NCBI GenBank assembly: GCA_016866785.1
Contig: VGLH01000023.1
Coordinates: 1-37,517 of the forward strand
DNA: 37,517 nt
Reading direction: 5' to 3'
Source of the DNA: Candidatus Poribacteria bacterium
Lineage (GTDB): Bacteria > Poribacteria > WGA-4E > GCA-2687025
Shown here: piece after piece, positions 12,002-37,517 of the stretch
Layout of the letters: the number at the start of each line of letters is the position of its first letter
How positions within the stretch are numbered: the first letter of the stretch is position 1
Position numbers and translations under genes: made by a program
The notes under the pieces: generated by a model
The model's database searches: none
The model's input: the letters and a program-made list of their open reading frames with translations, nothing else
What the model was told of the DNA's origin: nothing

Positions 12002-12027
12002 CGTCCCACTCCTTCCTACAAGGTCGC

Positions 12028-12113: not shown

Positions 12114-12142
12114 TTCCGGCGCTGGCGGATGACGGCTAGACT
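12114..12142 (+). promoter_or_regulatory. Weak candidate promoter of the oxidoreductase/isomerase pair
   Basis: TAGACT (12137-12142, 4 of 6 to the -10 consensus) lies about 36 bases before the ATG at 12178. The -35 position at 17 bases spacing is TTCCGG, a poor match. The same TAGACT hexamer serves in the better predicted promoter of the LamG gene at 34756, which is the main reason to list it. Confidence 0.25.
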
Positions 12143-18495: not shown

Positions 18496-18524
18496 TTGAC
18501 TCGCTCCATCCGCGGTGGTACGTT
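18496..18524 (+). promoter_or_regulatory. Predicted extended -10 promoter of the tamB-Omp85 operon
   Basis: TTGACT (18496-18501, 5 of 6) is 17 bases from TACGTT (18519-18524), and the -10 is preceded by TGG, an extended -10 element. The transcript would start near 18531, about 34 bases before the ATG at 18565. The same TGGTACGTT core appears in the LamG promoter at 33937-33965. Confidence 0.5.
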
Positions 18525-18564
18525 CAGACTGAATCCGCCAGCATCAAAGCCCAGACAGCGTCCC

Positions 18565-21500: not shown

Positions 21501-24500
21501 CCTCTTGATCCCGCTGATCGACCGCGTCGTCGACGCGCCCATAGACGTCAGGATTCGCAGTCCGAAGGGCGATGCCGCGTGGCTTGCCGCGCTGGAGCCG
21601 TCTCTCGCGTCCATCTCCGGCACGGCTTCCTTGGACCTCCGTGTCACGGGAACGCTGGAGAAGCCCATCGTCCAGGGCTCCGCCGCGCTGAAGGCTTCGT
21701 CGATCCTGCCGAAGCCGCTGTCGATCCCAGCGACGAATGTCCTCGCATCGGTCGCGTTCGACACGGTGATGCGTCCGGACGGATCGCGTGACGTGCGCGC
21801 CCGGCTCGACGGGTCCGCCGGGCTCGGGCAAGGGTCGTTCGCGGCGATCGGCGAGATCGCTTACCCGCTCGACGCCGACTACCTGCGCAACCCCCTCGAT
21901 GCCAGCCGACTGCGCACGTCCGTCACCGTGACGGCGCAGGACGTATCGCTCGCCGACTGGACGGAAGCCCTCGCCGTCCCTGACGTGCCGCTCAGCGCCG
22001 TCGCCGATGCGACGCTGCGCGTGACCGGCGAAGGCGTCGATCCCAAGACGTGGCGGGCTGAACTCCGGTCGCCTCGCCTCACGGTCGGCGGCGGCGAGTC
22101 CAAGCTGACGAACCGCGATGACATCGCCGCCGAGTACGACGGCGAAGCGATCCACGTGCGGCGCTTCGTCCTCGCCGACGGCGACCGAACCGCCCAGTTG
22201 GACGGGAACATCTCACTGCCGCAGAGCCTCGATCTCCGGTTGGCGCTTCGAGACCTCGACATCGCGCTGTTCCGCGATGCCGTGCCGGGCAAGCCGACGT
22301 TGATGGGAGCCTTGTCCGGCGGGCTGTCCGTGTCGGGTACGCCAGAGGAACCCCGATTCCGCGCCGAGTGGCAGCTCGGCGAGGCGAAGATCGGAACCGC
22401 CGCCGTCGACGCCTTCGCTGGCAAGGTCGAATACGACGGCAAGGCGCTGGCTCTCGGCAACTGGGACATCGCCTCCTATGGCAGCCATCTGCTGGTGCAG
22501 GGCTCCGTCCCGTTGTCTATCGGCTCCAGACCCAGCCAACCCTTTGTGCGAGCCACCGACCAGCCGGTCGATGTCACGATCCGCACGGACGCCGTTCAGC
22601 TCGGATTCCTGCCTCTGGTGGTTCCTGCAGTCGAGGAGGCGTCCGGCACGGCGGGACTCGACCTCCGAGTCGGCGGGACCTCTTCCAAGCCGTTGGTCTA
22701 CGGGTCCGGCGCGGTCACGAACGCGAGCCTTCGCCTGAGAGGCAATGACACCCCGGTCGAACAGGCGACATGCGCGCTGAACGCGACCGGCGATGCCATC
22801 GTGGTCGATGACCTCTCTTTCCGTGTGCGCGACGCCTCCTACTCGGCGCGCAACACGCGTCTGGCACTCGACGGGCTCAGGCCCGTATCCCTGAACACGG
22901 TTCTGAGCTTCGTCGACGCGTCCCTCGAATCGTGGATGCCGACGGCGTCGCAAGGTTCCACAACGACGCGCGCCACCGGCGATCTATCGGCGCAGATCGA
23001 CCTGCGCAGCGCGCTTGCTTCGGCTTCCGCCGAATCCGACGCCTTCGACCGCTTCGTGGCGGCAGCGCGGAATGTCACGGCGGCGCTGGTCGTGCGCGAC
23101 ATGACTGCCGATGCTTCCGGCTACCACATCGTCAACGACGACGCGCTCGTCGCTCGGCTCCAGAAGAACACGCTCGAGCTCGGCTCGATGACGCGGGATG
23201 CGTGGGATGCTTTGCGGTCGGAGGAACCGTCCACGTGGCTCGCGCGCATCCTGCCGCAGCCGCTGAGCCCGCTGGTGGTGCGCCATTTCGGGAGCCCGAC
23301 GCGTGAGCTCCTGGTCCGTCTGCGCGGAACGTCCGACCTGTCGCGCTCGATGAACGTCGAAGTCTCCGGGCGCATCGGCACGCACTATCTGAACGAGTGG
23401 ATCGTCGCTCATCTGCCGCGACCCGAGGACGCTCCGGTTCCCACGCTCAAGGGCGGGTTCCGGTTCGATGCGCGGCTCTCCGGCACCGAGCGCGCGCCGC
23501 GTCTCGCGCTGTCCGCCAGCGCCGAGAACCTGCAGATGAACTCCGTCGCCGTTCAGGACCTGTCGCTCCTCGTCACCTACGCGAATCGCGCGCTATCGGT
23601 GGAGCAAGGCAGATTCCTCGTCAGCGGGAGCGAGGTCCGAGTCGGCGGGGACATCCCGTTCGAGCTGAGTCCGCTGAACGGCAAGGTCGGCGTGCTCGAC
23701 CGCGACTTCCAACTGCAGCTCGATTCCGATCTCCGCAACTTCGACTTCGTGCCGGCGCTCTTCCCGGCGATCGTGCAGCGGGCGGATGGAACCGGTACCG
23801 CGCACATCACGCTCGGGGGCAGACTCGAAGCGCCACTCTATCAGGGGTCGATCCAGGTGCGGAACCTGGCGCTGGACATGCCATCGAACTATCTTTTCGT
23901 ATCGGATGCCAGCGCCGACCTGACATTGCACGGCGACGTTCTCGAGCTCCAACCAGGTCGCCAGGTCACCGGGCTGTTCAACGGCGGCAGGTTCGCCATC
24001 GACAGCGCCCGGCTGAACCTCGAAAAGGGCATGCCCAAGTCGGTCGATCTGCGCGGGAGCATCCAGGGCGTGACGTTCTACCAGCCTGGCGAATACCGAA
24101 CGACCGTCGACGCCACCGCCCGCATCGTCGGTCCGCTCGATCATGTCGTCGTGCGCGGCGACGTGATGCCCAAGAACGTGCGGTACGAGCAGGACTGGCG
24201 CGAGTTCGTGACGGAGAACCTCAGCGCCATGACGCGCGTTCGCCGCAAGGCGATGTACAACGTACCGATCCTGCGAGGCATGGAGCTCGACGTCGGCATC
24301 CAGGCGGAACGAGATGTCGTCGTGGACACCGGCGTCGGAGAGATCGAGGCGCGCGTCGATGGTCGAGTCTTCGGACTGGTGAGCGAGCCGGTCTTCGTCG
24401 GCGAAGTGGCGGTGCTGACCGGCGAGTTCTCCTATCTGGGCAATCGGTTCCGCATCGACTCCGGGCAGGTGACCAGCACGGACGCCGGCGTGTTCGATCC

Positions 24501-25071
24501 GGAGTACACGGTCGTGGCGACTACCGTGGAGCCCCTTCGCAACGTCCGCATCCCGGATGGGCAAGGACGACCTCAGGTACGCGACGTGCGCGTCCAGGTG
24601 ACGCTACGCGGGAGACTGGAGCAGGGGCAACCGCCGGAGTTCGCCGCGACCGTGCTGAACCGCGCCCAAGGCGAGGAGTTCCCTCTCGACACGCAGCAGG
24701 GCATCTCGCTCCTCACCTTCGGCGACGCGACCCTCATCGCGCAGGGAAGCGATACGGCGCTCTCAACGGCGGGGCAGAATCTGCTGAAAGAAGGGGCGGA
24801 ATCCTATCTTGGCGGTCGGTTCGCCCGAGTTCTCGGGCTGCGCACGCTCGACGTCGATGTCGCCTCCAGCGGCATCGAGGGCTCGCGGTTCTCGCTGACG
24901 AAGGATGTGTCGTCGCGGTTCGCCATCACTTACGCATCGACTCTCCAGCTCGATCAGGAGCAGCGCGTCGAGGTCGAATACACCGTCAACGACAACCTGG
25001 CATTCATCGGCGAGCGGAACGAACAGGGGAAGTACGGTGTCGACCTGAAGTTCTCCCATGAGTTCCGGTAA
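18565..25071 (+). CDS. tamB: TamB-like inner-membrane-anchored translocation/assembly protein (AsmA superfamily)
   Basis: A 2168-residue giant, far longer than E. coli TamB (about 1260). TamB-family proteins are bridge-like beta-taco structures across the periplasm, involved in assembly of outer-membrane proteins and in lipid transport between membranes. An N-terminal helix (about 11-28, after MHPHRVRRRF) anchors it; the rest is repeated beta-strand segments of the AsmA/DUF490 sort, with recurring short phrases such as ASVAFDT, DLRVTGTLEKP and DLRVGGTSSKP. The conserved C-terminal DUF490 domain spans about 1780-2168 and contains GEFSYLGNRFRIDSGQV (near 1952) and QGISLLTFGD. I chose the ATG at 18565; a TTG at 18496 in frame coincides with the predicted -35. 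The Omp85 gene follows with overlap, as for TamA/TamB. Confidence 0.92.
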   Translation: MHPHRVRRRFALSAGIVIAALVVGALYLRSTWFLSHIRPFVEGRVSSSLQFPVSIGALTGTVFGDVQAQNIVVADPGFADPMLTIRSLRLRFDVLPLLRRVVRVHGIELDDVMVALRRERDAPFNLERAIANATAPSPGAEPSQGFDVELGDVSIRNGTLALVDRGSEARLNASGIQIVSEQTPPLDIEQPRSFSLTTDAWAIELGSMRQQIASATASGKLSPQAIHADAITLRVGQSRVGLRGDVALTPIVALSLVGDATIQLADVRDINPTALAEVSGTLIATSLRLADDPADVALSADLTVEDAAVGDLALPKITAGLSGRLSELRVASIAADWLNGTIRADVEVTGTESGFTEIEASADRIDIEAVRQVLLSGNPSLRPLTGRLSGNLRAELRDSGIASVGTWRSANASWGGRRFDEEPTRIRHEIRGDTFSVSGDLAGMTVEATGDMPQNGEPLNVRVTCATPEVASAARVLGFRATGPASADARVSGDASSPQVTFAAQWQGTANGALPVAGLNARGEWSDNRLTLTDARLASSEGEVRVTGTVEPPNGKTPARIRLSAESHAFDLAPYVHAFAPGVRFTGSLDGSLALEGFIDRLSGSGSLSPKRISVDDVGIAVQPVEVVVADGKVSLPELRASAGDVAIIGRAAFDAERYGFTLGLDQPTALEQIAAALPERWTRHLADAHGILEFEARADAAYAYPTVSATASLDDARYRTADLGDSLVNLLFDGKQVYGRGTLMSGAFDLDADASLEADAIPVRAVVQARDADLLPLIRLAGTPAGKGWQAARIAGDARVTGDLRQPKNLAADVNLDSVRFSTERHALASTQPVRGRITSSGVELGRFALASEDPESPFDVLAEGLIDWSRPLDFSVDARVFNLATVADFMGFPDRISGAGTYRLRVQGTTREPIIETEWTIPEAMLTLGTTRPPLAATNANGRLTYADKVIRIERTAFRVGSQPFEVAGQVPLDLSFLLIPLIDRVVDAPIDVRIRSPKGDAAWLAALEPSLASISGTASLDLRVTGTLEKPIVQGSAALKASSILPKPLSIPATNVLASVAFDTVMRPDGSRDVRARLDGSAGLGQGSFAAIGEIAYPLDADYLRNPLDASRLRTSVTVTAQDVSLADWTEALAVPDVPLSAVADATLRVTGEGVDPKTWRAELRSPRLTVGGGESKLTNRDDIAAEYDGEAIHVRRFVLADGDRTAQLDGNISLPQSLDLRLALRDLDIALFRDAVPGKPTLMGALSGGLSVSGTPEEPRFRAEWQLGEAKIGTAAVDAFAGKVEYDGKALALGNWDIASYGSHLLVQGSVPLSIGSRPSQPFVRATDQPVDVTIRTDAVQLGFLPLVVPAVEEASGTAGLDLRVGGTSSKPLVYGSGAVTNASLRLRGNDTPVEQATCALNATGDAIVVDDLSFRVRDASYSARNTRLALDGLRPVSLNTVLSFVDASLESWMPTASQGSTTTRATGDLSAQIDLRSALASASAESDAFDRFVAAARNVTAALVVRDMTADASGYHIVNDDALVARLQKNTLELGSMTRDAWDALRSEEPSTWLARILPQPLSPLVVRHFGSPTRELLVRLRGTSDLSRSMNVEVSGRIGTHYLNEWIVAHLPRPEDAPVPTLKGGFRFDARLSGTERAPRLALSASAENLQMNSVAVQDLSLLVTYANRALSVEQGRFLVSGSEVRVGGDIPFELSPLNGKVGVLDRDFQLQLDSDLRNFDFVPALFPAIVQRADGTGTAHITLGGRLEAPLYQGSIQVRNLALDMPSNYLFVSDASADLTLHGDVLELQPGRQVTGLFNGGRFAIDSARLNLEKGMPKSVDLRGSIQGVTFYQPGEYRTTVDATARIVGPLDHVVVRGDVMPKNVRYEQDWREFVTENLSAMTRVRRKAMYNVPILRGMELDVGIQAERDVVVDTGVGEIEARVDGRVFGLVSEPVFVGEVAVLTGEFSYLGNRFRIDSGQVTSTDAGVFDPEYTVVATTVEPLRNVRIPDGQGRPQVRDVRVQVTLRGRLEQGQPPEFAATVLNRAQGEEFPLDTQQGISLLTFGDATLIAQGSDTALSTAGQNLLKEGAESYLGGRFARVLGLRTLDVDVASSGIEGSRFSLTKDVSSRFAITYASTLQLDQEQRVEVEYTVNDNLAFIGERNEQGKYGVDLKFSHEFR

Positions 25072-25087
25072 GATGAGTTCCGGTAAG
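25058..25087 (+). repeat. Tandem 15-bp duplication at the tamB/Omp85 junction
   Basis: The 15-bp unit ATGAGTTCCGGTAAG is present twice in direct tandem (25058-25072 and 25073-25087). The first copy contains the last codons and TAA stop of tamB (25069-25071); each copy supplies an in-frame ATG for the Omp85 gene. Deleting one unit would leave both genes intact, so this looks like a recent replication slippage. Confidence 0.9.
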
Positions 25088-27826
25088 CCGCGTTCGATGG
25101 CTCGACGCTGGCGCTTGGCGGTCTTCTGGGCGCTTCCGGCGCTGGTCGCCGTTGCCCTACACGCCCAAGGCAGCGACCGAGTGATCACCTCGGTGGACTT
25201 CTTCGGCGACGTGCCGTCGGATCGTCGACAGTTGGGCTCCCGCGCATCGGAGCTGTCCGGGACGATCTACTCGCCGTACGCGACGCGCAAGGCGGTGGAA
25301 GACCTCTACGCGACCGGCTTGTTCAGCCAGGTCGAAGCCTTCGCGACCGAAGACGTCGGCGGCGTTCGCCTTCGATTCCACCTCACCGCCAAGACGTTCG
25401 TCTCATCGCTCTCGATCATCGGAAACAGCGCGCTGACCACGGCGGTACTACTGTCGGAAGTCACGCTGAAGCAGGGCACCGAATACGCTCCGAACCTGCT
25501 TCTCCGCGACGTGGAAGCCCTACGCGCCGCCTATCTGCGTCGGGGCTACTTCCAGACCCGCATCGAGAGCGGAGCCCGTGTGCCCGGCAAGACGGCTGAA
25601 ATTCTCTATCGCATCAACGAGGGCCCGCTGGCTGTCTTCGGGCCCCTCAGTATTGACGGCGCCCGTGCGTATCGAGAGAAGGACCTGATCGACGCAATCG
25701 GCTACCGCGAAGGCGCGCCATACTCCGCCGTCGATGCGGAAGGCTACGCCACACGGCTGAGAGCCTACTACCGGCGCGGGAACTACCTCGCTGTCGATGT
25801 CGATCCACCAATCGCCACGTACGATGCGACGTCCAACCGGGCTTCCGTCAGGATCACCGTGCGCGAGAGCAGGAAGGTGGAGCTCCAGTTCGACGGCAAC
25901 CTGGCGTTCAGCGATGACGAGCTGCGACGCCGGGTTCAGCTCGAGAGCGTGAACGCGTTCGGCTTCCGTAAAGCCGCCGCCGACCTGAGAACGCTCTACC
26001 TGCGCGAAGGGTACTTTCAGGCGCAGATCGACACGCCCACGGTGTACGAGACCGAATCCACGATGACGGTCACCTTTCCCATCCAAGAGTCTGAGCGCCG
26101 CTACATCGACGAAGTACGGATCGAGGGCAACGGAGCTTTCTCGTCGCACGCGCTCACGTCACGAATGCGCACGCGCTCACGAGGAAGATGGACTTGGGTT
26201 CCGCTGCTGGGCAGATGGTCGAGTCGCGGCATCTTCGATCCGCTCGTGCTGGACGCCGACCGCAATGTGCTCGAGGTCTTCTACCGCTCCCAGGGATACC
26301 GCGCCGTGCGGACGTTCGGCGATGCGCGGCTCGAGGACAGCAGCAGGAAGCTCGTCGTCGTCGTCCGCGTGCAGGAGGGTCCGCAGTGGGTCGTTCGGGC
26401 GGTCGGTGTGCAGGGGAACACGGCGGTGCGCACCAGCGAGCTTCTGGGGCGGCTGACTTCTCGGGTCGGCGATCCCTATGACGACGAGAAGGTGGTCGCC
26501 GACCGCGTTCGGATTCGCGAACACTACTCGGCGCGCGGCTACCCGTATGCAGACGTGCCCTCGCCGGAGTTCGATCCGGCGTCGGGGCGGCTGGTGTATC
26601 ACGTCACCGAGGGCAGGCTCGTCCGCATCGGAGCCGTCAGCGTCCGGTTCCTGAACGAGAACCCGAAGACCCGACCTTATGTCATCCTCCGCGAGCTCCT
26701 CGTCCGCGAAGGCGCCCTCTACAGCGCCCCGAAGCTCGCAGAGAGTCGCCAGCGTATCCTGCGGCTCGGGTTCTTCTCGACCGTTCAGATGACGCCGTCC
26801 GGGTTCTACGAAGCGCGAGAGGTCGTCGATATCCGCATCGTTGTCCGAGAGAGAGGCGCGGGTTCCGTCAACGTCAGCGGCGGGTACAGCCCATCCGAGG
26901 GCGTTCGCGGAACCCTCGAGGTGGTTCAGCGGAACCTGCTAGGGTCGGGTCGCCGGATCGGAGGCAAGGTGCGGCTGGGAACCTTGGGCAGCCGCTACGA
27001 GGCGACGTTCGTCGAGCCGTGGACGGTCTGGACGCGCACCCGCACGACGGTGCGAGCCTTCCGAGACGACCTCGAAGAGCAGGACAACACGTTAACGACC
27101 GGCGGACTCGCCAACCTGAGCCGCACCGTGTACCGGCACAATCTGATGTCCCTCAATTACCGGTATCAGCGCTTCTCTCTGACCGATCCCAAGGAGGGCT
27201 CGACGGTCGAGTCGGTCGGCGTGCTGCCCACATTGAGCGGGTTGGGGGCGTCCTTTCAGCGCGACACGCGAGACAGCCTGTTCGACGCGACTCGCGGCTG
27301 GTTCCACGAGGCGAGCGTCGAAGTGTCGGGCGGACCTCTCGGTGGCGAGAGCCAGTTCCTTCGGGCGACGGCGGATATGCGCTACTTCGCCCGACTCGGT
27401 CGTACCGTCTGGGCGGCGCAGACGCGGTTTGGCTACGGGTCACGCCTGGGGAGCGACCGAGAGATCTCATCGACGGAGCGCTTCCGCCTGGGCGGGAGCA
27501 CGTCGGTGCGCGGGTACGCGGAGCGATCTCTCGGCAAGCGAGATGCCTACGGCAATTATCGCGGCGACGTGCTCGCCTTCGCCAGCACGGAGCTTCGGAT
27601 TCCCGTCTATCGCGTCGTCGGAACCGCACTGTTCGCCGACGCTGGGAACGTCTGGCAATCTCTCGACGACGTGAGCGGAGACCCGATCAAGATGTCGGCA
27701 GGCGTCGGGCTGAGAGTCCAGACGCCCATCGGGCCCGCGCGCGTCGATGTTGCGTTCCCATTCGTGCAGTTGCGCGACGATCCCAAGAGCACGCGTGTGT
27801 GGGTGGCTCTGGGCAACGCCTTCTAG
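25058..27826 (+). CDS. Outer-membrane Omp85/BamA-family assembly protein with seven POTRA-like repeats
   Basis: An outer-membrane beta-barrel of the BamA/TamA family. A hydrophobic stretch LAVFWALPALVAVALHAQG (about 20-38) is the signal peptide. Seven POTRA-like modules follow, at about 41-112, 113-190, 191-270, 271-345, 346-440, 441-519 and 520-598; recurring cores are SIIGNSAL, SIDGARAY, RIEGNGAF and GVQGNTAV. The Omp85 barrel spans about 600-922, with the SVRGYAE motif of strand L6 and a C-terminal phenylalanine. BamA usually has five POTRAs and TamA three. Being encoded with a TamB homologue suggests a TamA role; the long POTRA chain resembles BamA. Starts at 25058, 25073 and 25097 are all in frame and none has a strong ribosome site; the duplicated 15-bp unit explains the first two. 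Confidence 0.93.
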   Translation: MSSGKMSSGKPRSMARRWRLAVFWALPALVAVALHAQGSDRVITSVDFFGDVPSDRRQLGSRASELSGTIYSPYATRKAVEDLYATGLFSQVEAFATEDVGGVRLRFHLTAKTFVSSLSIIGNSALTTAVLLSEVTLKQGTEYAPNLLLRDVEALRAAYLRRGYFQTRIESGARVPGKTAEILYRINEGPLAVFGPLSIDGARAYREKDLIDAIGYREGAPYSAVDAEGYATRLRAYYRRGNYLAVDVDPPIATYDATSNRASVRITVRESRKVELQFDGNLAFSDDELRRRVQLESVNAFGFRKAAADLRTLYLREGYFQAQIDTPTVYETESTMTVTFPIQESERRYIDEVRIEGNGAFSSHALTSRMRTRSRGRWTWVPLLGRWSSRGIFDPLVLDADRNVLEVFYRSQGYRAVRTFGDARLEDSSRKLVVVVRVQEGPQWVVRAVGVQGNTAVRTSELLGRLTSRVGDPYDDEKVVADRVRIREHYSARGYPYADVPSPEFDPASGRLVYHVTEGRLVRIGAVSVRFLNENPKTRPYVILRELLVREGALYSAPKLAESRQRILRLGFFSTVQMTPSGFYEAREVVDIRIVVRERGAGSVNVSGGYSPSEGVRGTLEVVQRNLLGSGRRIGGKVRLGTLGSRYEATFVEPWTVWTRTRTTVRAFRDDLEEQDNTLTTGGLANLSRTVYRHNLMSLNYRYQRFSLTDPKEGSTVESVGVLPTLSGLGASFQRDTRDSLFDATRGWFHEASVEVSGGPLGGESQFLRATADMRYFARLGRTVWAAQTRFGYGSRLGSDREISSTERFRLGGSTSVRGYAERSLGKRDAYGNYRGDVLAFASTELRIPVYRVVGTALFADAGNVWQSLDDVSGDPIKMSAGVGLRVQTPIGPARVDVAFPFVQLRDDPKSTRVWVALGNAF

Positions 27827-27838: not shown

Positions 27839-28516
27839 CTACTTCCACTCCGCGATTCGCCACCCCTTTTGGTGCGCCGTCCGACGAAGCCCCCGCGATG
27901 GGTTCACCGCAACAGGGTGCCCGACGACCGACAGCATGGCTGCATCCGCTGAGCTGTCGCCGTATGCGGCGCAATCCTCCAAACGCAGGTCGTGCTCCAC
28001 CGCGTAGCGTCGCACCGCGTCGGCTTTGCGCTCGTCGCTCAGGGGTTCTCCGATCAGGCTGCCCGTGAAGACGCCGTTCCGCTCCTCCAGCCGAGCGGCG
28101 CGCACATCGTCCGCACCGATGTGCCTCGCGATGGGAGCGGCGATGAAATCCGCTGTGCCGGTAACCAGCACCACGGGATCGCCCCGGCGCTGGTGCTCTC
28201 GAACCGTCGCCAGCCCCTCAGCGTAGAAGCGTGGCTTGGCGAACGTTGGGAATGTATCGTCCGCAAGGCGCTTGACCTCCTCCGCGTCCATCGACTGGTA
28301 CATCTGGTAGAAGAGTCGGTTGAATCCCGCGCGGCTGACCTTGTCCGCAAGCAGCAGGATCGGCACGCGGCGCAGGAACCCCGCGAGCCAGAACCAGCGG
28401 CGAGCCGGGGACATGCCGTGCGTCTTGTAGTGGACGTAGAACAGGACGATGTTCGTGTCGAGCAATGTGCCGTCGACGTCGAAGAAGGCGGCGGCGCGGC
28501 GCGTCTCTGACATCAA
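27839..28516 (-). CDS. HAD-IB family phosphatase (SerB-like)
   Basis: A 225-residue hydrolase of the haloacid dehalogenase superfamily, subfamily IB, related to phosphoserine phosphatase. Motif I is FDVDGTLLDTN (12-22), with D13 as nucleophile and D15 as general acid; motif II is LVTGTADF (about 116-123); motif III with lysine ERKADAV and motif IV AAYGDSSADAAML follow. The cap region (about 30-100) has an aromatic, partly amphipathic stretch RRWFWLAGFLRRVPILLLAD that may touch membrane. The ATG overlaps the stop of the ligase/acyltransferase gene as ATGA, so it belongs to the lipid operon. A lysophosphatidate or phosphatidate phosphatase role is an inference from context; phosphoserine phosphatase cannot be excluded. 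It converges on the Omp85 gene 12 bases away. Confidence 0.85.
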   Translation of the reverse strand: MMSETRRAAAFFDVDGTLLDTNIVLFYVHYKTHGMSPARRWFWLAGFLRRVPILLLADKVSRAGFNRLFYQMYQSMDAEEVKRLADDTFPTFAKPRFYAEGLATVREHQRRGDPVVLVTGTADFIAAPIARHIGADDVRAARLEERNGVFTGSLIGEPLSDERKADAVRRYAVEHDLRLEDCAAYGDSSADAAMLSVVGHPVAVNPSRGLRRTAHQKGWRIAEWK

Positions 28517-31155
28517 GAATGTGAGGAAGCCGCCGCGCGGAGATCGGCGACCTTTTCCTGAACGCGGCAGGTGATTTCGCGGTAGAGAGGATAGTGGGGT
28601 TCCCGCTCACGGCGAGCGATGTAAGGCTCCACCGTGATCGGTTCGCCGAGATGGACCCGAACCGGCGCCAACTGCGGCAGGAACTGCCCCTTCGGCAGCG
28701 CCTGGTAGGTTCCATCGATATACGCCGGCACGATTGGCACGCCGAGCTCGAGGGCAAGCAGCCCCAGTCCGGGCTTGAACGGCTGAATCTCGCCGGTGCG
28801 CGAGCGCGTGCCCTCCGGGAAGATCAGCAGCGACCTGCCCATCTCGACAGCCCGCTGGGACAGCCCGAGACTCCGCACGAAGTCGCCGTACCGGTCGAAC
28901 GGCAGCACGTTCAGGAACGTGCTGACGAGCCATCCCTTGACGTAGGAATCGAAGAAGTAGTCTTTGGCGCCTAGGACATGCGTGTCTTTGGCGCGGCGAC
29001 GCAGCGTGGTCAGGATCGCGGCGCTGTCGAGGTGGCTGCAGTGATTGGCGGCGATGATGAAGGGACCCGACTTCGGCAGGTTCTCGACGCCCGTCGTCCG
29101 CAGATGAAACAGCGATCGATACATCACGCCCGCGCCGAACCGGAACAACCCCGCGAGCAGGTTCTGGAGACGCGACTTGACGAGGTACTGAGACTCGTAC
29201 TCCTTGGATGGCAGAGCCCCCAAGGTCACCGCTTGTCGCTGGAACGCCGGCTCCGGTCCCCGGGTCTCTCCCATGTGGGGAGCGATGTAGTCCATCACGT
29301 CTTGCACGGTCTGGAACTTCAGCGCGATATGGTCCGGCAGGAGGATCTGGAGGTTCGACTCCAGCATCGCCAGGAGCTCGACCTTCATCAGCGAGTCGAG
29401 GTTGAGATCGCGGTCGAAGTCGTGTCCGGGCTGAATAGCTGTCGAATCGACGCCGGCGATGCGCGCGATCTCGCCCACCAGTTGGGCTTCCCACGAGCCC
29501 TGCTCCCACGTTCGCGCTGTCTCGCTCGGCGGAACTTCGGTCGGGTCGGACGGAACTTCCCCAGCCGAAAGCAGGGAGCGGACGTCCTCGCGCTTCACGG
29601 TCATCTGGTGCGTCTTGGGCAGCTCGTGTTCCCAGAAATGGACGTGCTGGATCCGCTGATACGATGGAATCCGCCCGCCGATATCCGCCAACGACGCATG
29701 GATCTCCTGCCGAACTGAGGCGTCGCGGGCGTCGCCGCGTGACAGCACGAACACACCGTGGACTTCCTCGCGGCGCTGCGCGTCCTTGATACCGACCACG
29801 CACATCTCTCGGACGTGCGGCACGCTCTTGTAGAGCAGCTCGACCTCGTCGGGGTAGACGTTCTTCCCGGCGCTCGTGACGATGACATCCTTGCTTCTGC
29901 CGGTGATGTGCAGGTAGCCTCGCTCGTCGAGGTAGCCCAAGTCACCCGTGTAGAGCCAGCCGTCGCGCAGCACCTTGGCGGTCGCCGTCTCGTTGCGGAA
30001 GTAGCCCGCCATCACGTTCGATCCCCGGACGACGATCTCACCGATTCCGTCGGAATCCGGCGACTCGATGCGCAGGTCCACACCAGGCAGGGGCATGCCG
30101 ACAGAGCCTTTTCGCGTCTGATGGAGCGGATTCACGGTGAGGACGGGAGCCGTTTCAGTCAGTCCATAGCCCTCGTGGATGGGGATGCCCGCTTCGACGA
30201 ACGCGGTGTATACGTCGGGGTCGAGCGCCGCCCCTCCGCTGACCAGCACGCGGATGCTGTCGCCGAACAACATGCGGAGGTCGGAACGGAGGTCGCCATC
30301 GCCGTTCTGGGTCCGACGCCGGACCGTCTCGTACAGCATCTGGTAGACGCGCGGCATCCCGAGCATCACGGTTGCCTGGATCCGCTGAAGCGTGTCCACG
30401 ATGTTGCGGGGTTTCAGCGAGCCGGAATAGGTCACGGTTGCGCCAGTGGCAATCGGAATCAGCAAACCGTTCGTGAACTCGAACGCATGGTTCAGCGGCA
30501 GGATCGACAGGAACTCGTCCGTCTCGAACGGCTCCAGCACGGCAGAAACGCTCTGCATGTTGGCGACGAAGTTCCGATGCGTCAGAACCACGCCCTTCGG
30601 ATCGACCGTCGTACCGGCTGTGAAAATGATCGACGCCGACTCCGATGGCGTTCCGAGGTCGGTCGTCTTGTCGGATACCCTCGGCGGCAGTTGACCGGCG
30701 AGGTCTTCGACTCGCCGCACGTCCGGCAGATCGAACGTCGGGTCTGTGCCCATCGCGCTCGGGGCGTTCGCCAACACCGCCTGCGAGTGGAAGATCAGCC
30801 GGGCGTCTGTGAACCGGGCAATGGCGTGGACTTCGTCGAACGGCGTCTGCGGATCGAGGGGAACCACGGTCATTCCGGCGGCAGTGCAGCCGAAGTAGGC
30901 GATGACCCATTCGGGCTGGCTCTCGGCATAGAGGATCGCACGCGACCCAGGAGAGTAGCCACTGGCGACCAGATCGGCTGCCAAACGCTGCGACTGCTCG
31001 AAGAGCGTGCCGTACGTGACTTCGGTCCACGCGCGGTCTCGCTGGATCCGCAAAGCGACCTTATCGCCGTGGGTACGGACAGTGCCCGCCAGCAGTGCCG
31101 TCAAAGTGGTTTCGTCCGGGAGAGCAGGAAGCGCCAGCTCCAGACTCCGTTCCAC
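28513..31155 (-). CDS. Fusion: acyl-CoA/ACP synthetase + acyl carrier domain + PlsC-type acyltransferase
   Basis: An 880-residue three-domain lipid enzyme. Residues about 1-540 form an AMP-binding acyl ligase: TAGTTVDPKGVVLTH (179-193) is the P-loop motif, with valine where the usual TSGTTG has glycine, followed by EGYGLTETAP, YTGDLGY and a C-terminal lysine in KTHQMTVKR. Residues about 555-640 are an acyl carrier domain with the phosphopantetheine serine S588 in DLNLDSLMKVE. Residues about 665-860 are an LPLAT acyltransferase with H705-x4-D710 (NHCSHLD) and FPEGTRSRTG. It could activate a free fatty acid, load it on its own carrier and pass it to a lysolipid. E. coli Aas has the opposite domain order and no carrier. 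The start is a GTG 13 bases after the reductase stop; no strong ribosome site is visible, so the start is uncertain. Confidence 0.9.
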   Translation of the reverse strand: MERSLELALPALPDETTLTALLAGTVRTHGDKVALRIQRDRAWTEVTYGTLFEQSQRLAADLVASGYSPGSRAILYAESQPEWVIAYFGCTAAGMTVVPLDPQTPFDEVHAIARFTDARLIFHSQAVLANAPSAMGTDPTFDLPDVRRVEDLAGQLPPRVSDKTTDLGTPSESASIIFTAGTTVDPKGVVLTHRNFVANMQSVSAVLEPFETDEFLSILPLNHAFEFTNGLLIPIATGATVTYSGSLKPRNIVDTLQRIQATVMLGMPRVYQMLYETVRRRTQNGDGDLRSDLRMLFGDSIRVLVSGGAALDPDVYTAFVEAGIPIHEGYGLTETAPVLTVNPLHQTRKGSVGMPLPGVDLRIESPDSDGIGEIVVRGSNVMAGYFRNETATAKVLRDGWLYTGDLGYLDERGYLHITGRSKDVIVTSAGKNVYPDEVELLYKSVPHVREMCVVGIKDAQRREEVHGVFVLSRGDARDASVRQEIHASLADIGGRIPSYQRIQHVHFWEHELPKTHQMTVKREDVRSLLSAGEVPSDPTEVPPSETARTWEQGSWEAQLVGEIARIAGVDSTAIQPGHDFDRDLNLDSLMKVELLAMLESNLQILLPDHIALKFQTVQDVMDYIAPHMGETRGPEPAFQRQAVTLGALPSKEYESQYLVKSRLQNLLAGLFRFGAGVMYRSLFHLRTTGVENLPKSGPFIIAANHCSHLDSAAILTTLRRRAKDTHVLGAKDYFFDSYVKGWLVSTFLNVLPFDRYGDFVRSLGLSQRAVEMGRSLLIFPEGTRSRTGEIQPFKPGLGLLALELGVPIVPAYIDGTYQALPKGQFLPQLAPVRVHLGEPITVEPYIARREREPHYPLYREITCRVQEKVADLRAAASSHS

Positions 31156-31168
31156 CAGGACTGCCGCG

Positions 31169-32908
31169 TCAGACGGACGCGCCGCCCCGGTCGTTGTCGT
31201 CGTCCTCGATCGCGGAGACCGAGGCGCGGTCGTCGGAGCCCGACGGAACCCGAGCGTCGAGGATCTCTTCCTCGGCGATCGGAGCCCGCACGGGGCCTTG
31301 ACCCATCTTCAGGACGTTACGCTTCAGACCCGGTATGTGCACGCGTTCGATGTAGTCGTGCCAGTCGATGGTCGTCGTGTCAAAGGGATAGGCGACCTTC
31401 TCATCCGCGTGCAACGCCTCGAACAGGCGCTGTGTCCGGGTCGTATCGAAGAGATAGGAGTGGTGGATGTAGGGTCCGTAGATGACCGTGTAGTAGTCGA
31501 GTCGCTCCGCGGCGCTCAGCAACGCGCCGACCCTGAACCGCCAGCGGCGCGTGCGCTTGTTCCTCGGCAGCCACTCCACGAATGCCAAGCACGCTCGCAA
31601 CGGCATCAGGTAGCGTCGTCGATGACGCCGACGGAACGTAGCCGTATCTGGGAATGACCATTCGCGGAGTGTGACCGGCAGACCGTTTCGGTCGAGCATC
31701 GGCTCCGCCCGAAAGTGCGCCCGCGTGTGGTCGTACAGCGCTCGGAAGCGCAAGGGGTTCCGAGTACCCGTGGCAACCTGATAGACGCTGAGGCCGCCTT
31801 TCTCAGCGGTGTCTGGAAGCGCCGCCAGCATCGCGTTGACCACGAAATCGACGGGGATCAGGTCCATCACGATGGACGGATCCGCCGGGAAGTCCGGCAC
31901 GCGACCCTTGCCGAATGCGACGATGATCGGGTCCGCCATGCGAAGGCCGTCGATCCACCCCGGTTCCGGTTCCACGAGGCTGCTTTCGATGATCGACGGG
32001 CGGATGATTGCCGTCGGCAGATCGCCGCGCGTCTGCGCGACCATCTGCTCGCCCATCGCCTTGGTGAACGTGTAGGTGTCGTTCCAGCCGCGTGCCTTCG
32101 CGCGTTCCATGCCGACCTGGATGAGCCGTTCCTTGGTCCACCGCTCTTGAATCGTCGCCGTCTGGCTGCGGACATACTCGCCGTCGCGCGTCTTTCCCTC
32201 CGCGCGCGCCACGTGCATCGCCTCGCGGACGAACGACCGCATGCGCTCCGGTTCCTGCGCCGCAGCCTCAGCCTGGCGGCATAGGCTCTGCAAGTGGGCG
32301 ACTTCGGAGGCGAGATCGGCTGGGAGCACGGGCCCGCGCCAACCTTCGGGAACCTTGCCCTCGACAGGCAGCAGAGCCTCCGGGGCGACATCCGGGTTCG
32401 TGCCATTCACGTAAGCCGTGGAAACGTGGAGGAGGATCGCGTCGCGACAAGCCTGTGCGAACTCAACGAGGCGTCGAGGAGCTAGCGTGTTCAGTTCGAC
32501 GGCGGCATCGAGTCGTTCGTCGAACACGACGACCGCTGCGCTATTGATGACGACCTGAACGCGCGAGGTGAGTTCTGCCCAGTCCTCGTCTGAGAGACCG
32601 AGATGCGAGGCGGAAATGTCGCCATCGACGACGCGCACCTTCTCGGCGATCCGCGACCGGAAGTCCTTGCCCCAGGTCTCTTTAAGGCGATTGAAGGCTC
32701 CGGTAGCCAGGATCTCGCGCTCGAAGCGCTCTTGGGCGGATTGCGGCTCCCCCTTTCCGCCGGATCGCGATCGTATGAGCAGATAGATGCGGTCGATGTC
32801 CGGTGCGGTGTGGAGCAGCTTCTCGACAAGGGGCTTGCCGAGAAACCCGGTGGACCCCGTGATGAGAACACACCGTCGTCCGAGAAACTGCCTGATCCGG
32901 TCGGTCAC
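31169..32908 (-). CDS. Fatty acyl-CoA/ACP reductase-like extended SDR (NAD_binding_4 family)
   Basis: A 579-residue NADPH-dependent reductase resembling eukaryotic-type fatty acyl-CoA reductases, which convert an acyl thioester to an alcohol, and the thioester reductase domains of peptide synthetases. The Rossmann motif is TGSTGFLG (17-24). The active-site serine is in HVSTAYVNG and the catalytic pair Y279-x3-K283 lies in YTFTKAMGE. The substrate-binding C-terminal half has PVDFVVNAML and an arginine-rich stretch FRRRHRRRY; the last 40 residues are acidic and disordered-looking. The start is a GTG with GAGGAC five bases upstream. First gene of the operon with the ligase/ACP/acyltransferase and the HAD phosphatase. 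Which thioester it reduces (CoA or the neighbour's carrier) cannot be told. Confidence 0.85.
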   Translation of the reverse strand: MTDRIRQFLGRRCVLITGSTGFLGKPLVEKLLHTAPDIDRIYLLIRSRSGGKGEPQSAQERFEREILATGAFNRLKETWGKDFRSRIAEKVRVVDGDISASHLGLSDEDWAELTSRVQVVINSAAVVVFDERLDAAVELNTLAPRRLVEFAQACRDAILLHVSTAYVNGTNPDVAPEALLPVEGKVPEGWRGPVLPADLASEVAHLQSLCRQAEAAAQEPERMRSFVREAMHVARAEGKTRDGEYVRSQTATIQERWTKERLIQVGMERAKARGWNDTYTFTKAMGEQMVAQTRGDLPTAIIRPSIIESSLVEPEPGWIDGLRMADPIIVAFGKGRVPDFPADPSIVMDLIPVDFVVNAMLAALPDTAEKGGLSVYQVATGTRNPLRFRALYDHTRAHFRAEPMLDRNGLPVTLREWSFPDTATFRRRHRRRYLMPLRACLAFVEWLPRNKRTRRWRFRVGALLSAAERLDYYTVIYGPYIHHSYLFDTTRTQRLFEALHADEKVAYPFDTTTIDWHDYIERVHIPGLKRNVLKMGQGPVRAPIAEEEILDARVPSGSDDRASVSAIEDDDNDRGGASV

Positions 32909-33120: not shown

Positions 33121-33888
33121 CTACTGCGACTTCACCTGAGCCCACATCGCTGCGAGCTTGCCGGAGGGCTCGACGGCGGTCGGCGTGTAGTTCATGATCT
33201 CGCCGGCTTCGGCGGCGGTCACCGCACGCGTGAAGACCATCACGTCATCGACCGTCATCGTCGACTTCCGCGCTGCGCAGCAGCCTCGGCTGTCGCGCCC
33301 GATGACGACATCGACAGTCGAGACCTTCACTTCGCCCTTCTGGGCGACTCGACCGGCTTCCTTGCCGTCGATGTAGTTGATGACGTTCGTGCCATCGAAG
33401 ACGCCGACGATGTGGTGCCATTCCTTCATCGGGACGTTCTTGCTCGCCTTCGTCTGCCATGCGACGAAATCAGGCGTCCAGTAAAGAGGCTCCCATTCGA
33501 GACCGGGACCCTGCCAGTTGCTCACGTGGATCATCCACGTGTCAGCCTTTGTGATGATCGAGACGTGGGAATCCGGCGCCGTGTCCACCTTTGCCCAGGC
33601 GGCGAGCGTCAACGCGCCCTTCGCCTGCAGCGACGCATGGTGCTTGACGACGATCATGTTTCCGGCGGCGGCATCGCTCACCATCGCCGCCTTGCCGTGT
33701 TTGCCCGTCACCCACTGGACATCGCCCGTCAGAGCACCGTGATTGCCAGTGCCGGAGATGTCGTTGGCGACTTTGCCCGTTCCCTCGTCCAACGGCAGGT
33801 AGAGCACAAGCCCCTTCGTATCGAGAGCCTGCGCGGCGTGGATACCGACCCCAAGCAGCAACGCAAGTCCCATCGCCCATCGCTTCAT
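33121..33888 (-). CDS. Secreted LamG/concanavalin-fold protein (copy 1)
   Basis: A 255-residue exported protein: the signal peptide MKRWAMGLALLLGVGIHAAQA is followed by one LamG-like jelly-roll domain (about 24-228). Diagnostic phrases are LVLYLPLDEGTGKVANDISG at the domain start, GNHGALTGDV, SIITKADTWMIHVSNW, WHHIVGVFDGTNVINYIDG and VDDVMVFTRAVTAAE near its end. LamG domains commonly bind carbohydrate or act as adhesion modules. I chose the ATG at 33888 because AAGGAG lies upstream of it and it begins the signal peptide; a longer frame from 33978 runs over the predicted promoter. A vicinal cysteine pair (RDSRGCC) is shared with the paralogue upstream. It has its own promoter. Confidence 0.88.
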   Translation of the reverse strand: MKRWAMGLALLLGVGIHAAQALDTKGLVLYLPLDEGTGKVANDISGTGNHGALTGDVQWVTGKHGKAAMVSDAAAGNMIVVKHHASLQAKGALTLAAWAKVDTAPDSHVSIITKADTWMIHVSNWQGPGLEWEPLYWTPDFVAWQTKASKNVPMKEWHHIVGVFDGTNVINYIDGKEAGRVAQKGEVKVSTVDVVIGRDSRGCCAARKSTMTVDDVMVFTRAVTAAEAGEIMNYTPTAVEPSGKLAAMWAQVKSQ

Positions 33889-33936
33889 GGCACTCTCTCC
33901 TTGATCCCTGACCCGTATTGTCGTCCGGTCGAGCCT

Positions 33937-33965
33937 AACGTACCAGACGCTCGCGTCGCCGTCAA
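33937..33965 (-). promoter_or_regulatory. Predicted extended -10 promoter of LamG copy 1
   Basis: On the minus strand TTGACG (33960-33965, 5 of 6) is 17 bases from TACGTT (33937-33942) with TGG before it. The TGGTACGTT core and the 17-base spacing equal those of the tamB promoter. Transcription would start near 33930, about 42 bases before the ATG. Confidence 0.5.
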
Positions 33966-33982
33966 CCGGCGCGTTCATGTGG

Positions 33983-34756
33983 CTACTCGGCGCGCAGAGC
34001 CGCCCATGTCGTTGCCGCCTTCGCCCTCGGATCGACCGAGAGGAAGTTGCCTCCGTAGATCTCCTTGACCTCAGCGGCAGTGATCGCCCGGTTCCACACC
34101 ATCACATCGTCCACGGACATCGTCGCCTTGCGCGCGTTGCAGCAGCCACGGCTGTCGCGCCCGATCACCACGTCAGCGGGCGTGTCGGCGATCGAGTTGC
34201 CGGCTTGAGCGTACTTACCCTTCTCGACGCCGTCGATGTACGTCAGAACCTGCTTGCCATCCCACGTCCCGACGATGTGGTGCCACTCCGATTTGGCGAT
34301 ATTGACGCTTGCCGCCGTCTGCCACGCGACGAACGCCGGCGTCCAGAACAGCGGCTCCCACTCGAATGCAGGGCCCCGCCAGTTGCTCAGATGGATCATC
34401 CACGTATCGGCTTTGGTGATGATCGAGTTGTGGCTATCCGGCATCGATTCCAGATTGCACCAGGCGACCAGCGACGCCGCCTTGCCCAGGTTCAGCGAGG
34501 CGCTGTTCTTGACGACGACCATGTTTGCGGGGGCGTCTTCGGTGACCTTGACCGCCTTCCCGAACTTCCCCGCGACCCAGCTCACCTTGCCCGAGAACTT
34601 GCCGTCGTTCTTGTTGCCCGATTCGTCCTTCGCGATTTCTCCGGAACCTTCATCGAACGGGAGGTAGAGCACCAACCCGTTCGTGTCCAGCGCCGAAGCC
34701 AAGTGCGCCCCAGCGAAGAGGACGAACGCAAATACCGATATCGCGATACGTCTCAT
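33983..34756 (-). CDS. Secreted LamG/concanavalin-fold protein (copy 2)
   Basis: A 257-residue paralogue of the protein at 33121-33888, clearly alike along its whole length. The signal peptide is MRRIAISVFAFVLFAGAHL ending ASA before LDTNGLVLYLPFDEGSG, the same mature start as copy 1. The LamG domain spans about 24-230 with SIITKADTWMIHLSNW, WEPLFWTPAFVAWQT, WHHIVGTWDGKQVLTYIDG and RDSRGCCNARKATMSVDDV. Its cysteines include an additional one in LVAWCNLE. AAGGGAA precedes the ATG. It lies 94 bases from the start of copy 1, which has its own promoter, so the genes are tandem duplicates with separate control. Function is unknown; binding to polysaccharide or to cell-surface partners is likely for the fold. 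Confidence 0.88.
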   Translation of the reverse strand: MRRIAISVFAFVLFAGAHLASALDTNGLVLYLPFDEGSGEIAKDESGNKNDGKFSGKVSWVAGKFGKAVKVTEDAPANMVVVKNSASLNLGKAASLVAWCNLESMPDSHNSIITKADTWMIHLSNWRGPAFEWEPLFWTPAFVAWQTAASVNIAKSEWHHIVGTWDGKQVLTYIDGVEKGKYAQAGNSIADTPADVVIGRDSRGCCNARKATMSVDDVMVWNRAITAAEVKEIYGGNFLSVDPRAKAATTWAALRAE

Positions 34757-34988: not shown

Positions 34989-36263
34989 ATGATTGGAATC
35001 TCACGCCTTCTGAACGGCACGGTGACAACCGGAGATGCGCTGCGATACGGGCGATCCACCGCCCGGGGTCCCGCCCACCTCCTCCACTATTCCGACGACA
35101 AGAAGCCCGTCGTCGTGTGGAACTGCACGCAGCGATGCAATCTGCGCTGCATCCACTGCTACGCGAACTCGCGGAACCAGGAATACCCCGGCGAGCTGAC
35201 GACCGACGAGGCGATGCGGTTCATGGACGACCTCGCCGCCTACAAGGTTCCCACCGTGCTCTTCTCCGGCGGCGAACCCCTGATGCGCCCCGACCTCTTC
35301 GAGATCGCCGAGCACGCTCGCGGGGTCGGGCTCCGAGCCGTCCTCTCGACGAACGGGACGCTCATCGACGACGAGACGGCGGACCGCATCCGCGACGCGG
35401 GGTTCACCTACGCCGGCATCAGCCTCGACGGCATCGGCGCCGTGCATGACCGCATCCGGGGGGTCAAGGGCGCGTTCGAGGACACGCTCGAAGGACTGCG
35501 ACGGGTCCGCGACCGAGGCGTGCGGGTCGGGCTGCGCTTCACGGTTCACGCGAAGAACGTCCAGGAACTTCCGGCGATCTTCGAGCTGATGGCGCAGGAA
35601 AGCATCCCGCGTTGCTGCATCTACCACCTGGCGTATGCCGGGCGCGGCGAGAAGCTGAGCCGCTATGACCTGACGCCGGAGGAGACGCGGTCGGCACTCG
35701 ACCTGATCTTCGAGCAGGCGCGGCTGTTCCACCAGCGCGGCATCGATCTCGACCTGCTGACCGTCGACAACCACACGGACAACGCCTACCTCTACATGCG
35801 GCTCCGGGAAGACGATCCCGACCGCGCGGAAGACGTCCTCAAGCTGCTCCAGTGGAACGGTGGGAACCAGTCCGGCATCGCCATAGCGGCGGTCGATCCG
35901 AGAGGCAACGTCCATCCCGACCAGTTCTCGTGGGAACACACGTTCGGCAACGTGCGCGAGCGCGCCTTCGGCGACATCTGGATGGATCGCACCCATCCCT
36001 ATCTGGCGATCCTCAAGGATCGCAAGAGCCACCTGAAGGGCAGATGCGCCGTCTGCAAGTGGCAGGGGATCTGCAACGGGAACCTGCGGATCCGAGCGGA
36101 GAGCTACTTCGGCGATCCGCTCGCTCCCGACCCCGGCTGCTACCTGACCGACGAGGAGTGCGGCATCCAGCCGGGAACCCCCGAAGCCGCCGCCGCTGCC
36201 GAGTTCTTGGTTCCCATTCAGGTGAACTCTCCCCAGTCCCAGTCCGCCACACACACGGCGTAG
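34989..36263 (+). CDS. ahbC: 12,18-didecarboxysiroheme deacetylase (radical SAM, SPASM domain)
   Basis: A 424-residue radical SAM enzyme of the siroheme-dependent heme pathway. It would remove two acetate side chains of didecarboxysiroheme to give iron-coproporphyrin III. The N-terminus MIGISRLLNGTVTTGDALRYG is typical of AhbC. The SAM-binding cluster is C50-x3-C54-x2-C57 (RCNLRCIHCY), followed by SGGEPLMRPDLFE. The C-terminal SPASM-type auxiliary cluster ligands include CAVCKWQGIC and later cysteines (GCYLTDEECG). GGGAGG lies ten bases before the ATG. A related alternative is NirJ of heme d1 synthesis, but the N-terminus favours AhbC. AhbA/B are not in the window. The next radical SAM gene follows after 30 bases. 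Confidence 0.82.
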   Translation: MIGISRLLNGTVTTGDALRYGRSTARGPAHLLHYSDDKKPVVVWNCTQRCNLRCIHCYANSRNQEYPGELTTDEAMRFMDDLAAYKVPTVLFSGGEPLMRPDLFEIAEHARGVGLRAVLSTNGTLIDDETADRIRDAGFTYAGISLDGIGAVHDRIRGVKGAFEDTLEGLRRVRDRGVRVGLRFTVHAKNVQELPAIFELMAQESIPRCCIYHLAYAGRGEKLSRYDLTPEETRSALDLIFEQARLFHQRGIDLDLLTVDNHTDNAYLYMRLREDDPDRAEDVLKLLQWNGGNQSGIAIAAVDPRGNVHPDQFSWEHTFGNVRERAFGDIWMDRTHPYLAILKDRKSHLKGRCAVCKWQGICNGNLRIRAESYFGDPLAPDPGCYLTDEECGIQPGTPEAAAAAEFLVPIQVNSPQSQSATHTA

Positions 36264-36293
36264 CCGCCTGAGCGGGTCGAGAAGGAGCCGCGC

Positions 36294-37460
36294 GTGAACG
36301 GGAATCTCCACGAGAAGGCGGATGCGGATCGGCGGCACATGAACGCCCGGATGACCGAGATCGACTTCAACGAATCGCCCTTCACGGTCATCTGGGAGGT
36401 CACGCGCGCGTGCGCGTTCGCATGCGTCCACTGTCGCGCCGAAGCGCAGCATCGCCGCCATGCCGACGAGCTGACGACCGAGGAGGGGTTCAAGCTCCTC
36501 GAAGACATCAAGTCGTTCGGTAACCCGATCATGGTGTTCACGGGCGGCGACCCGATGATGCGCCGCGATCTGTTCGACCTGCTGGGCAAGAGCGTCCAGC
36601 TCGGGCTGCGCACGTCGCTGACCCCGACGGCAACCGCGCTCGTCACGCGCGAGCGCCTCGAACGCGTCCGCGACGTCGGCGTGCTGCGGATCGCGCTCAG
36701 CCTCGACGGACCCGACGCGCAGACACACGATTTCTTCCGGGGGTTCGCCGGCTCGTTCGCGCGGACGATGGAGATTCTCGAGACGGCGCAGGACCTCGGC
36801 ATGAGCTTGCAGGTCAACACGACCGTCAGCCGGTACAACCGCGACAAGTTGGACGACATGACCCCCTTCCTCGAAAAGTACGGGATCGTCCAGTGGTCCG
36901 TGTTCTTCCTCGTCCCGACGGGCAGAGGTCAGACCGCCGACATGATCACCGCCGAGGAGCACGAGGAGGTCTTCAACTGGCTGTGGGAGCTCTCCAAGCA
37001 CGCGCCGTTCGACATCAAGGCGACGGCCGCCCAGCACTTCCGGCGCGTCGCGATCCAGCGCGAGCGGCAAGCTCAGCGCGAATCGGGTGAACGCGGACCC
37101 GTGCGCTTCGCAGGAGCCGGATTCCGGTATGCGGACGGACTGCATCGCCCGATGCAGGGCGTCAACGACGGCAAGGGCCTGGTGTTCGTCTCGCATGTTG
37201 GCGACGTGTACCCCAGTGGGTTCCTGCCGATTTGTGACGGCAACGTGCGCGTGAAGTCGCTGGTAGACATCTACCGGAACGCGCCGCTCTTCCGCGAACT
37301 GCGCGATCCCGACTTGCTCAAGGGCAAGTGCGGGCGGTGCGAGTACCGCGTCGTGTGCGGCGGGAACCGAGGGCGCGCCTACGCGCTGACGGGGGACTAC
37401 CTCGCGTCCGAACCCATGTGCAACCACGACCCGATGATGGAGGCAATGGCGTCCGTCTGA
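36294..37460 (+). CDS. AhbD-like / TIGR04053-family radical SAM SPASM protein
   Basis: A 388-residue radical SAM protein. The iron-sulfur cluster that binds SAM is C40-x3-C44-x2-C47 (RACAFACVHCR) and the SPASM region has CGRCEYRVVCGGNRGRAYA followed by a late cysteine (MCNHDP). IWEVTRAC, FTGGDPMMRRDLF, SLDGPDAQTHDFFRG and FFLVPTGRG are shared by AhbD (heme b synthase, which decarboxylates iron-coproporphyrin III) and by the TIGR04053 (BA_1875) family, which is close to it. Placement directly after ahbC favours the heme role. The start is a GTG with AAGGAG six bases upstream; ATGs in frame further on lack such a site. I leave the symbol blank because AhbD and TIGR04053 cannot be separated by eye. 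Confidence 0.82.
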   Translation: MNGNLHEKADADRRHMNARMTEIDFNESPFTVIWEVTRACAFACVHCRAEAQHRRHADELTTEEGFKLLEDIKSFGNPIMVFTGGDPMMRRDLFDLLGKSVQLGLRTSLTPTATALVTRERLERVRDVGVLRIALSLDGPDAQTHDFFRGFAGSFARTMEILETAQDLGMSLQVNTTVSRYNRDKLDDMTPFLEKYGIVQWSVFFLVPTGRGQTADMITAEEHEEVFNWLWELSKHAPFDIKATAAQHFRRVAIQRERQAQRESGERGPVRFAGAGFRYADGLHRPMQGVNDGKGLVFVSHVGDVYPSGFLPICDGNVRVKSLVDIYRNAPLFRELRDPDLLKGKCGRCEYRVVCGGNRGRAYALTGDYLASEPMCNHDPMMEAMASV

Positions 37461-37463
37461 GGC

Positions 37464-37492
37464 GTGCCGTTCTCCGGCAGGTGCGCTACACT
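37464..37492 (+). promoter_or_regulatory. Weak candidate promoter of the gene at the right edge
   Basis: TACACT (37487-37492, 4 of 6) is preceded at 17 bases by GTGCCG (37464-37469, 3 of 6). It lies just after the radical SAM stop and 17 bases before the ATG at 37510. Chance matches of this quality are common in GC-rich DNA. Confidence 0.25.
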
Positions 37493-37509
37493 GCTCCGGG
37501 GGATTCCAC

Positions 37510-37517
37510 ATGGCACG
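37510..37517 (+). CDS. Start of an unidentified gene, cut by the window edge
   Basis: ATG GCA CG at the last eight bases follows a possible GGGGGA ribosome site and a possible promoter. Only M-A and part of a third codon are visible, so nothing can be said about the product. Confidence 0.3.

Follow-up and report, generated by a model that had tools for sequence, protein, structure and literature searches.

Three adjacent minus-strand genes on a poribacterial contig encode a fatty-acyl reductase (FAR), a protein that joins an AMP ligase to an acyl carrier (ACP) and a PlsC-type acyltransferase (LPLAT), and a HAD phosphatase. What kind of lipid would such a set of genes make, and does it belong to a known system? 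An earlier note on this DNA had read it as a lipid operon, had thought a self-contained route to fatty alcohols, wax-like or ether lipids conceivable, and had held that the ligase–ACP–LPLAT order was not a named system. The window analysed here is the whole stretch of 37,517 nucleotides, contig 23 of a Candidatus Poribacteria genome (G000) of 4.35 Mb that is 95% complete.

Three tightly linked genes with intact catalytic motifs

We found the three open reading frames on the minus strand where the earlier note had placed them, with the 13-base gap that it described between the FAR stop and the ligase start (31156–31168). The ATGA overlap that it read between the ligase and HAD genes is in fact TGATG, where the ligase stop TGA (28515–28513) and the HAD ATG (28513–28511) share one base; with the alternative TTG start of the HAD gene, the junction becomes TTGA. 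This tight spacing suggests that translation of the genes may be coupled. The features of the operon are:

31169–32908, minus strand: gene 1, FAR (GTG start, 579 aa), corresponding to the N-terminal module of ElbD as a gene of its own
about 32863–31829, minus strand: NAD_binding_4 domain of gene 1 (Pfam)
about 31522–31307, minus strand: Sterile domain of gene 1 (Pfam)
28513–31155, minus strand: gene 2, AMP ligase–ACP–LPLAT (GTG start, 880 aa), corresponding to the remaining ElbD modules
29998–31083, minus strand: AMP-binding (acyl-activating) domain of gene 2 (PF00501, residues 25–386)
29284–29484, minus strand: acyl-carrier (PP-binding) domain of gene 2 (Pfam)
29394–29392, minus strand: codon of the phosphopantetheine serine, Ser588, of the gene 2 ACP (LDSL motif)
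28717–29103, minus strand: LPLAT (PlsC-type acyltransferase) domain of gene 2 (NHCSHLD and PEGT motifs)
27839–28513 (ATG start) or to 28516 (TTG start), minus strand: gene 3, HAD-IB phosphatase (TIGR01490), comparable to elbB

Pfam finds NAD_binding_4 (3.9e-72) and Sterile (8.6e-12) domains in the FAR, AMP-binding (2.6e-77), AMP-binding_C, PP-binding (1e-9) and Acyltransferase (1.9e-23) domains in that order in gene 2, and a HAD domain (1.4e-35) in gene 3, which falls in the HAD-IB subfamily TIGR01490. The catalytic motifs are intact in the FAR (GSTGFLG, YTFTK), the ligase (TAGTTVDPKG, GRSKD), the ACP (LDSL with Ser588), the LPLAT (NHCSHLD, PEGT) and the HAD protein (DVDGT, GDSSAD), whose substrate is predicted to be a lipid phosphate. 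The best solved relative of the FAR is the fatty acyl-CoA reductase 7eoz (9.9e-93). We considered whether the FAR might be a thioester reductase of the NRPS, PKS or CAR type, the first two of which the earlier note had named as an outcome that would undo its reading, and rejected this: the best such match is 1.6e-8, a Sterile domain is present, and the protein groups with alcohol-forming FARs.

The rest of the window holds genes of other kinds. A TamB-like gene (2191 aa) and an adjacent gene for an Omp85 protein with POTRA repeats (922 aa) occupy 18496–27826 on the plus strand, convergent with the lipid operon; neither was found near elbD in relatives and we take them to be chance neighbours. 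Upstream of the operon, two similar Laminin_G_3 proteins are encoded in tandem (33121–34756, minus strand), and beyond them lies an 836-aa open reading frame without a Pfam match (35001–37511).

The reductase and ligase genes are probably a split ElbD

In Myxococcus xanthus, ElbD carries an N-terminal FAR1-like domain followed by an acyl-CoA synthetase (ACS), an ACP and an AGPAT-like acyltransferase; its gene lies in a five-gene operon with the HAD gene elbB (PMC9131029). The window encodes the same four domains in the same order, spread over two genes rather than placed on a single polypeptide. The window's genome and four others of its family (G001, G002, G004 and G005) encode FAR and ligase–ACP–LPLAT in two neighbouring genes, whereas in all other Poribacteria families examined they form one protein of about 1,420–1,490 residues. 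The fused protein is also found in Planctomycetota, Armatimonadota, Acidobacteriota and Verrucomicrobiota, and for one of these proteins (locus L071) all four domains, including the ACP, were confirmed by Pfam. Many Phycisphaerae loci, L071 (7124–7969) among them, have a further PlsC-type acyltransferase gene immediately upstream of the fused elbD.

To place the split reductases we used a FAR-domain tree that does not contain the M. xanthus sequence, and in it all five split FARs fall into a single clade (SH-aLRT 100) lying among the FARs of fused ElbD-type proteins, while stand-alone proteobacterial FARs sit apart. The split junction coincides with the unconserved linker between FAR and ligase in the fused proteins. 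We considered an assembly frameshift and rejected it, as the split is common to five genomes that form one clade. Because the split reductases form one clade, the simplest reading is a single fission at the FAR/ligase linker, only in the window's family. We conclude that the operon is probably a split ElbD-type module for ether-lipid synthesis with an ElbB-kind HAD phosphatase, produced by one fission in one family of Poribacteria. Its predicted membership in the ElbD group draws on architecture, gene order and the literature, M. xanthus ElbD itself (ABF88003) standing outside the comparison. The idea of an unnamed system is thus rejected, since the domain order belongs to ElbD, both in the published architecture and in the fused relatives (PMC9131029, PMC9426513).

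The same data bear on whether the operon could make fatty alcohols and wax esters, with the FAR's alcohols esterified by a wax synthase and ligase–ACP–LPLAT merely recycling fatty acids. FAR-type reductases are expected to yield fatty alcohol, and the window's FAR shares its reductase family with the stand-alone FARs of bacteria. However, the window's FAR lies in the ElbD clade and not in the stand-alone clade, and in relatives FAR and ligase–ACP–LPLAT are parts of one polypeptide. We also found no WS/DGAT (PF03007) match in the window's genome, although the Hahella and Ketobacter controls gave 4–5 matches each. This makes a wax-ester product very unlikely, and the wax-type lipids of the earlier note are not supported.

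The HAD gene and three further genes are conserved neighbours of elbD

Of the 38 ElbD loci that could be read, 34 have the HAD gene immediately after elbD, and in one FAR–LPLAT locus (L109) it immediately follows the FAR–LPLAT gene. The linkage that the earlier note proposed to survey is therefore kept in relatives rather than broken up. The Pfam E-values and the retention of the same three-gene order exclude chance as the source of the three-gene arrangement.

Downstream of HAD, among the 34 HAD-linked loci whose contig extends far enough, we found a zinc MDR alcohol dehydrogenase in 24, a YegS/DAGK-type lipid kinase in 19 and a LarA-like (Lar_N) protein in 15. Loci with these genes occur in Planctomycetota, Poribacteria, Armatimonadota and Tectomicrobia. 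In many cases neighbouring genes overlap or leave almost no gap. At 42 stand-alone FAR loci, none of the three was found. In the window's genome the three genes lie together on contig 1 (8380–12136), unlinked from the operon. The self-contained route that the earlier note had thought conceivable is thus not supported, because the conserved partners are encoded elsewhere. Representative positions are:

L039, 13072–16873, and L067, 12928–16707: MDR – LarA-like – YegS/DAGK block after ElbD–HAD
L109, 11063–15371: MDR – LarA-like – YegS/DAGK block in Tectomicrobia
window's genome, contig 1 (L136), 10919–12136, minus strand: zinc MDR
window's genome, contig 1 (L136), 9293–10897, minus strand: LarA-like protein
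window's genome, contig 1 (L136), 8380–9252, minus strand: lipid kinase

The Tectomicrobia locus has an intermediate architecture: a FAR–LPLAT gene that lacks ligase–ACP (L109, 7965–10649) is followed by HAD–MDR–LarA-like–DAGK, and there is no AGPS in that genome. In the comparison of Poribacteria, four genomes (G007, G008, G009 and G011) lack both ElbD and the LarA-like protein, two have ElbD alone and two have the LarA-like protein alone.

The solved relatives of the zinc MDR are ketose, sorbitol and threonine dehydrogenases, and the LarA-like protein comes closest to 9q2u and 9q3j, LarA homologues with a single histidine (PMC12611868). The presence of LarC was uninformative as evidence for a nickel pincer, as LarC occurs in 38 of 40 relatives, those without a LarA-like gene among them. 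When we aligned the elb-linked LarA-like proteins and the orthologue in the window's genome (L136, 9293–10897) with 9q2u, they had an arginine in place of the lysine that we take to be the tether of the nickel-pincer cofactor, and no elb-associated member aligned has a histidine at the nickel-ligand position. With the lysine replaced and the ligand histidine missing in this alignment, use of a nickel pincer by these proteins is doubtful.

No true AGPS in the searched genomes with HAD-linked ElbD

In four loci (L075, L083, L085 and L086), an AGPS-related gene lies directly downstream of a FAR–LPLAT gene. The L083 protein scores 460 bits against guinea-pig AGPS, and the arrangement is that of MXAN_1675–1676. 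We used the L083 protein as the query in a search for AGPS and counted matches of 600 bits or more as true AGPS relatives. True AGPS (about 600–870 bits) was found in G030, where it is on contig 66, in the Acidobacteriota genome of L059 and in three control genomes. Where the ElbD or FAR–LPLAT locus is without a HAD gene, 5 of 6 genomes have it; in the search of 22 genomes with HAD-linked ElbD, including that of the window, it was not found once. The earlier note had advised looking for an AGPS-like gene; the best match in the window's genome reaches only 161 bits (31% identity), a distant relative. We also searched for the CarF/PEDS1 desaturase (PF10520) and found no match in this genome, nor in any control genome.

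The distant relative is an AGPS-like FAD protein encoded on contig 2 of the window's genome (27790–29544; L048, 9788–11545) with an AGPS-like HHGVG motif. Its gene adjoins one for an [Fe-S]-type oxidoreductase in a catabolic-looking cluster, and close relatives of the protein were found only in two other genomes of the window's family. We set it aside as an AGPS partner on account of its distant similarity and catabolic-looking neighbourhood.

These results bear on a peroxisome-like route, in which the FAR would give fatty alcohol, the LPLAT would give acyl-DHAP and an AGPS encoded elsewhere would join them. The FAR and acyltransferase domains fit such a route, as do the FAR–LPLAT loci of other bacteria with AGPS directly downstream, and the contig 2 flavoprotein could be offered as the AGPS despite its 161 bits against about 600–870 for the true enzyme. 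However, true AGPS is missing here and in every searched genome with HAD-linked ElbD, and the contig 2 gene sits in a catabolic-looking setting, while most ElbD genomes contain no close relative of it. We regard this route as improbable, if a little less so than wax-ester synthesis.

The anticorrelation between HAD and AGPS has a Fisher p of 6e-5, but it involves only 2–3 phylogenetically independent pairs and is not significant after correction, so we rejected it as proof. M. xanthus has both AGPS and elbB, and exclusivity of HAD and AGPS is for this reason not a rule. The absence of AGPS alongside HAD-linked ElbD suggests an AGPS-independent route, as a lead and not a rule, and argues that ElbD does not simply feed AGPS.

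A possible AGPS-independent route to ether lipids

For the split ElbD module we propose the following steps. The ligase domain would activate a fatty acid with ATP and load it onto the phosphopantetheine of the ACP on the same chain, an activity known for M. xanthus ElbD, in which both ligase (ACS) and carrier (ACP) functions were demonstrated (PMC9131029). The LPLAT would pass a carrier-bound acyl group on to glycerol-phosphate (G3P) or DHAP as acceptor. The separate FAR may dock to the carrier in trans or take acyl-CoA, and would reduce the acyl thioester to an aldehyde or alcohol. The HAD protein would then take a phosphate off the glycerolipid, leaving a neutral intermediate; the MDR, LarA-like protein and kinase would subject this to a redox step and then add phosphate again, to give an alkyl-glycerol phosphate. 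Given its dehydrogenase relatives, the MDR may act at the C2 position of glycerol. A neutral intermediate is proposed because a phosphatase and a lipid kinase occur in one cluster.

We suggest tentatively, as a possibility that we think more apt to fail than to hold, that ElbD (fused or split)–HAD–MDR–(LarA-like)–DAGK is a complete AGPS-independent ether-lipid route that passes through non-phosphorylated glycerol or dihydroxyacetone, the ether bond arising through an as yet undescribed enzyme or chemistry, such as reduction of an aldehyde-derived hemiacetal. If this is true, the complete ElbD–HAD–MDR–(LarA-like)–DAGK route would account for ether lipids in bacteria that have no AGPS. The extended gene set and the AGPS absence are the parts worth following: the MDR, LarA-like and kinase partners, taken with the missing AGPS, narrow the candidates for the missing ether-lipid steps to a few, and the split form allows the FAR and ligase–ACP–LPLAT to be purified and assayed separately.

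That the likely product is an ether lipid, one of those that the earlier note had thought conceivable, is supported by the ElbD architecture, as a prediction from sequence. The operon could instead make a non-ether product, such as a specialised lipid derived from an aldehyde or alcohol, in which case the resemblance to ElbD would be architectural only. Neither FAR nor acyltransferase activity of ElbD was detected in vitro (PMC9131029), and an analysis of adenylation sites suggests different substrates for the sponge clades (PMC9426513). A Black Sea survey found ElbD homologues across many phyla, and in Pontiella, which has one, ether lipids were not detected, so an ElbD homologue does not guarantee ether lipids (PMC11868695). 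On the other side, M. xanthus makes far less ether lipid when elbD is disrupted (PMC9131029), and the domain order and HAD neighbour are conserved. We consider a non-ether product unlikely, although it has a somewhat better chance than the AGPS route.

Comparison with known systems

The closest known system is the elb operon of M. xanthus (elbA–E, MIBiG BGC0000871), which has FAR, acyl-CoA synthetase, ACP and AGPAT-type acyltransferase domains in the same order and, like the window's cluster, a HAD phosphatase gene. The window differs in that its FAR is a separate gene and in that HAD lies downstream of elbD, whereas it lies upstream in M. xanthus. We saw no elbA, elbC or elbE, and found no ElbE-type NAD-dependent epimerase, beside the window's three genes.

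MXAN_1675–1676 (FAR–GNPAT and AGPS) shares FAR and acyltransferase domains with the window, but it has a true AGPS and no ligase–ACP; L075, L083, L085 and L086 are of that type and the window is not. Aas (acyltransferase/acyl-ACP synthetase) also joins acyl-activating and acyltransferase domains, and the ligase part of gene 2 matches the Aas-type model PRK08633, so that gene 2 could be imagined to re-acylate lysophospholipids after activation, with the FAR as an unrelated neighbour. However, the match scores 259 bits, far below the cut-off of 1221, the order is the reverse of the LPLAT-before-ligase order of Aas, an ACP is inserted, and most relatives carry the FAR on the same polypeptide; Aas-like recycling is the least probable of the readings weighed here.

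PMC9426513 reports elbD-like clusters with the same FAR–ACS–T–AGPAT domains from sponge Poribacteria and Acidobacteriota, cites Lorenzen et al. for a poribacterial ElbD homologue, and describes most ElbD-like proteins outside myxobacteria as having no FAR domain. The window shares its phylum with part of these clusters. The core genes of the sponge clusters are fused and flanked by hydrolases and oxidoreductases, and in the text consulted neither a split form nor an MDR–LarA-like–DAGK block is named. The ElbD system is thus already known; what is new here is its split form and the extended MDR–(LarA-like)–DAGK gene set.
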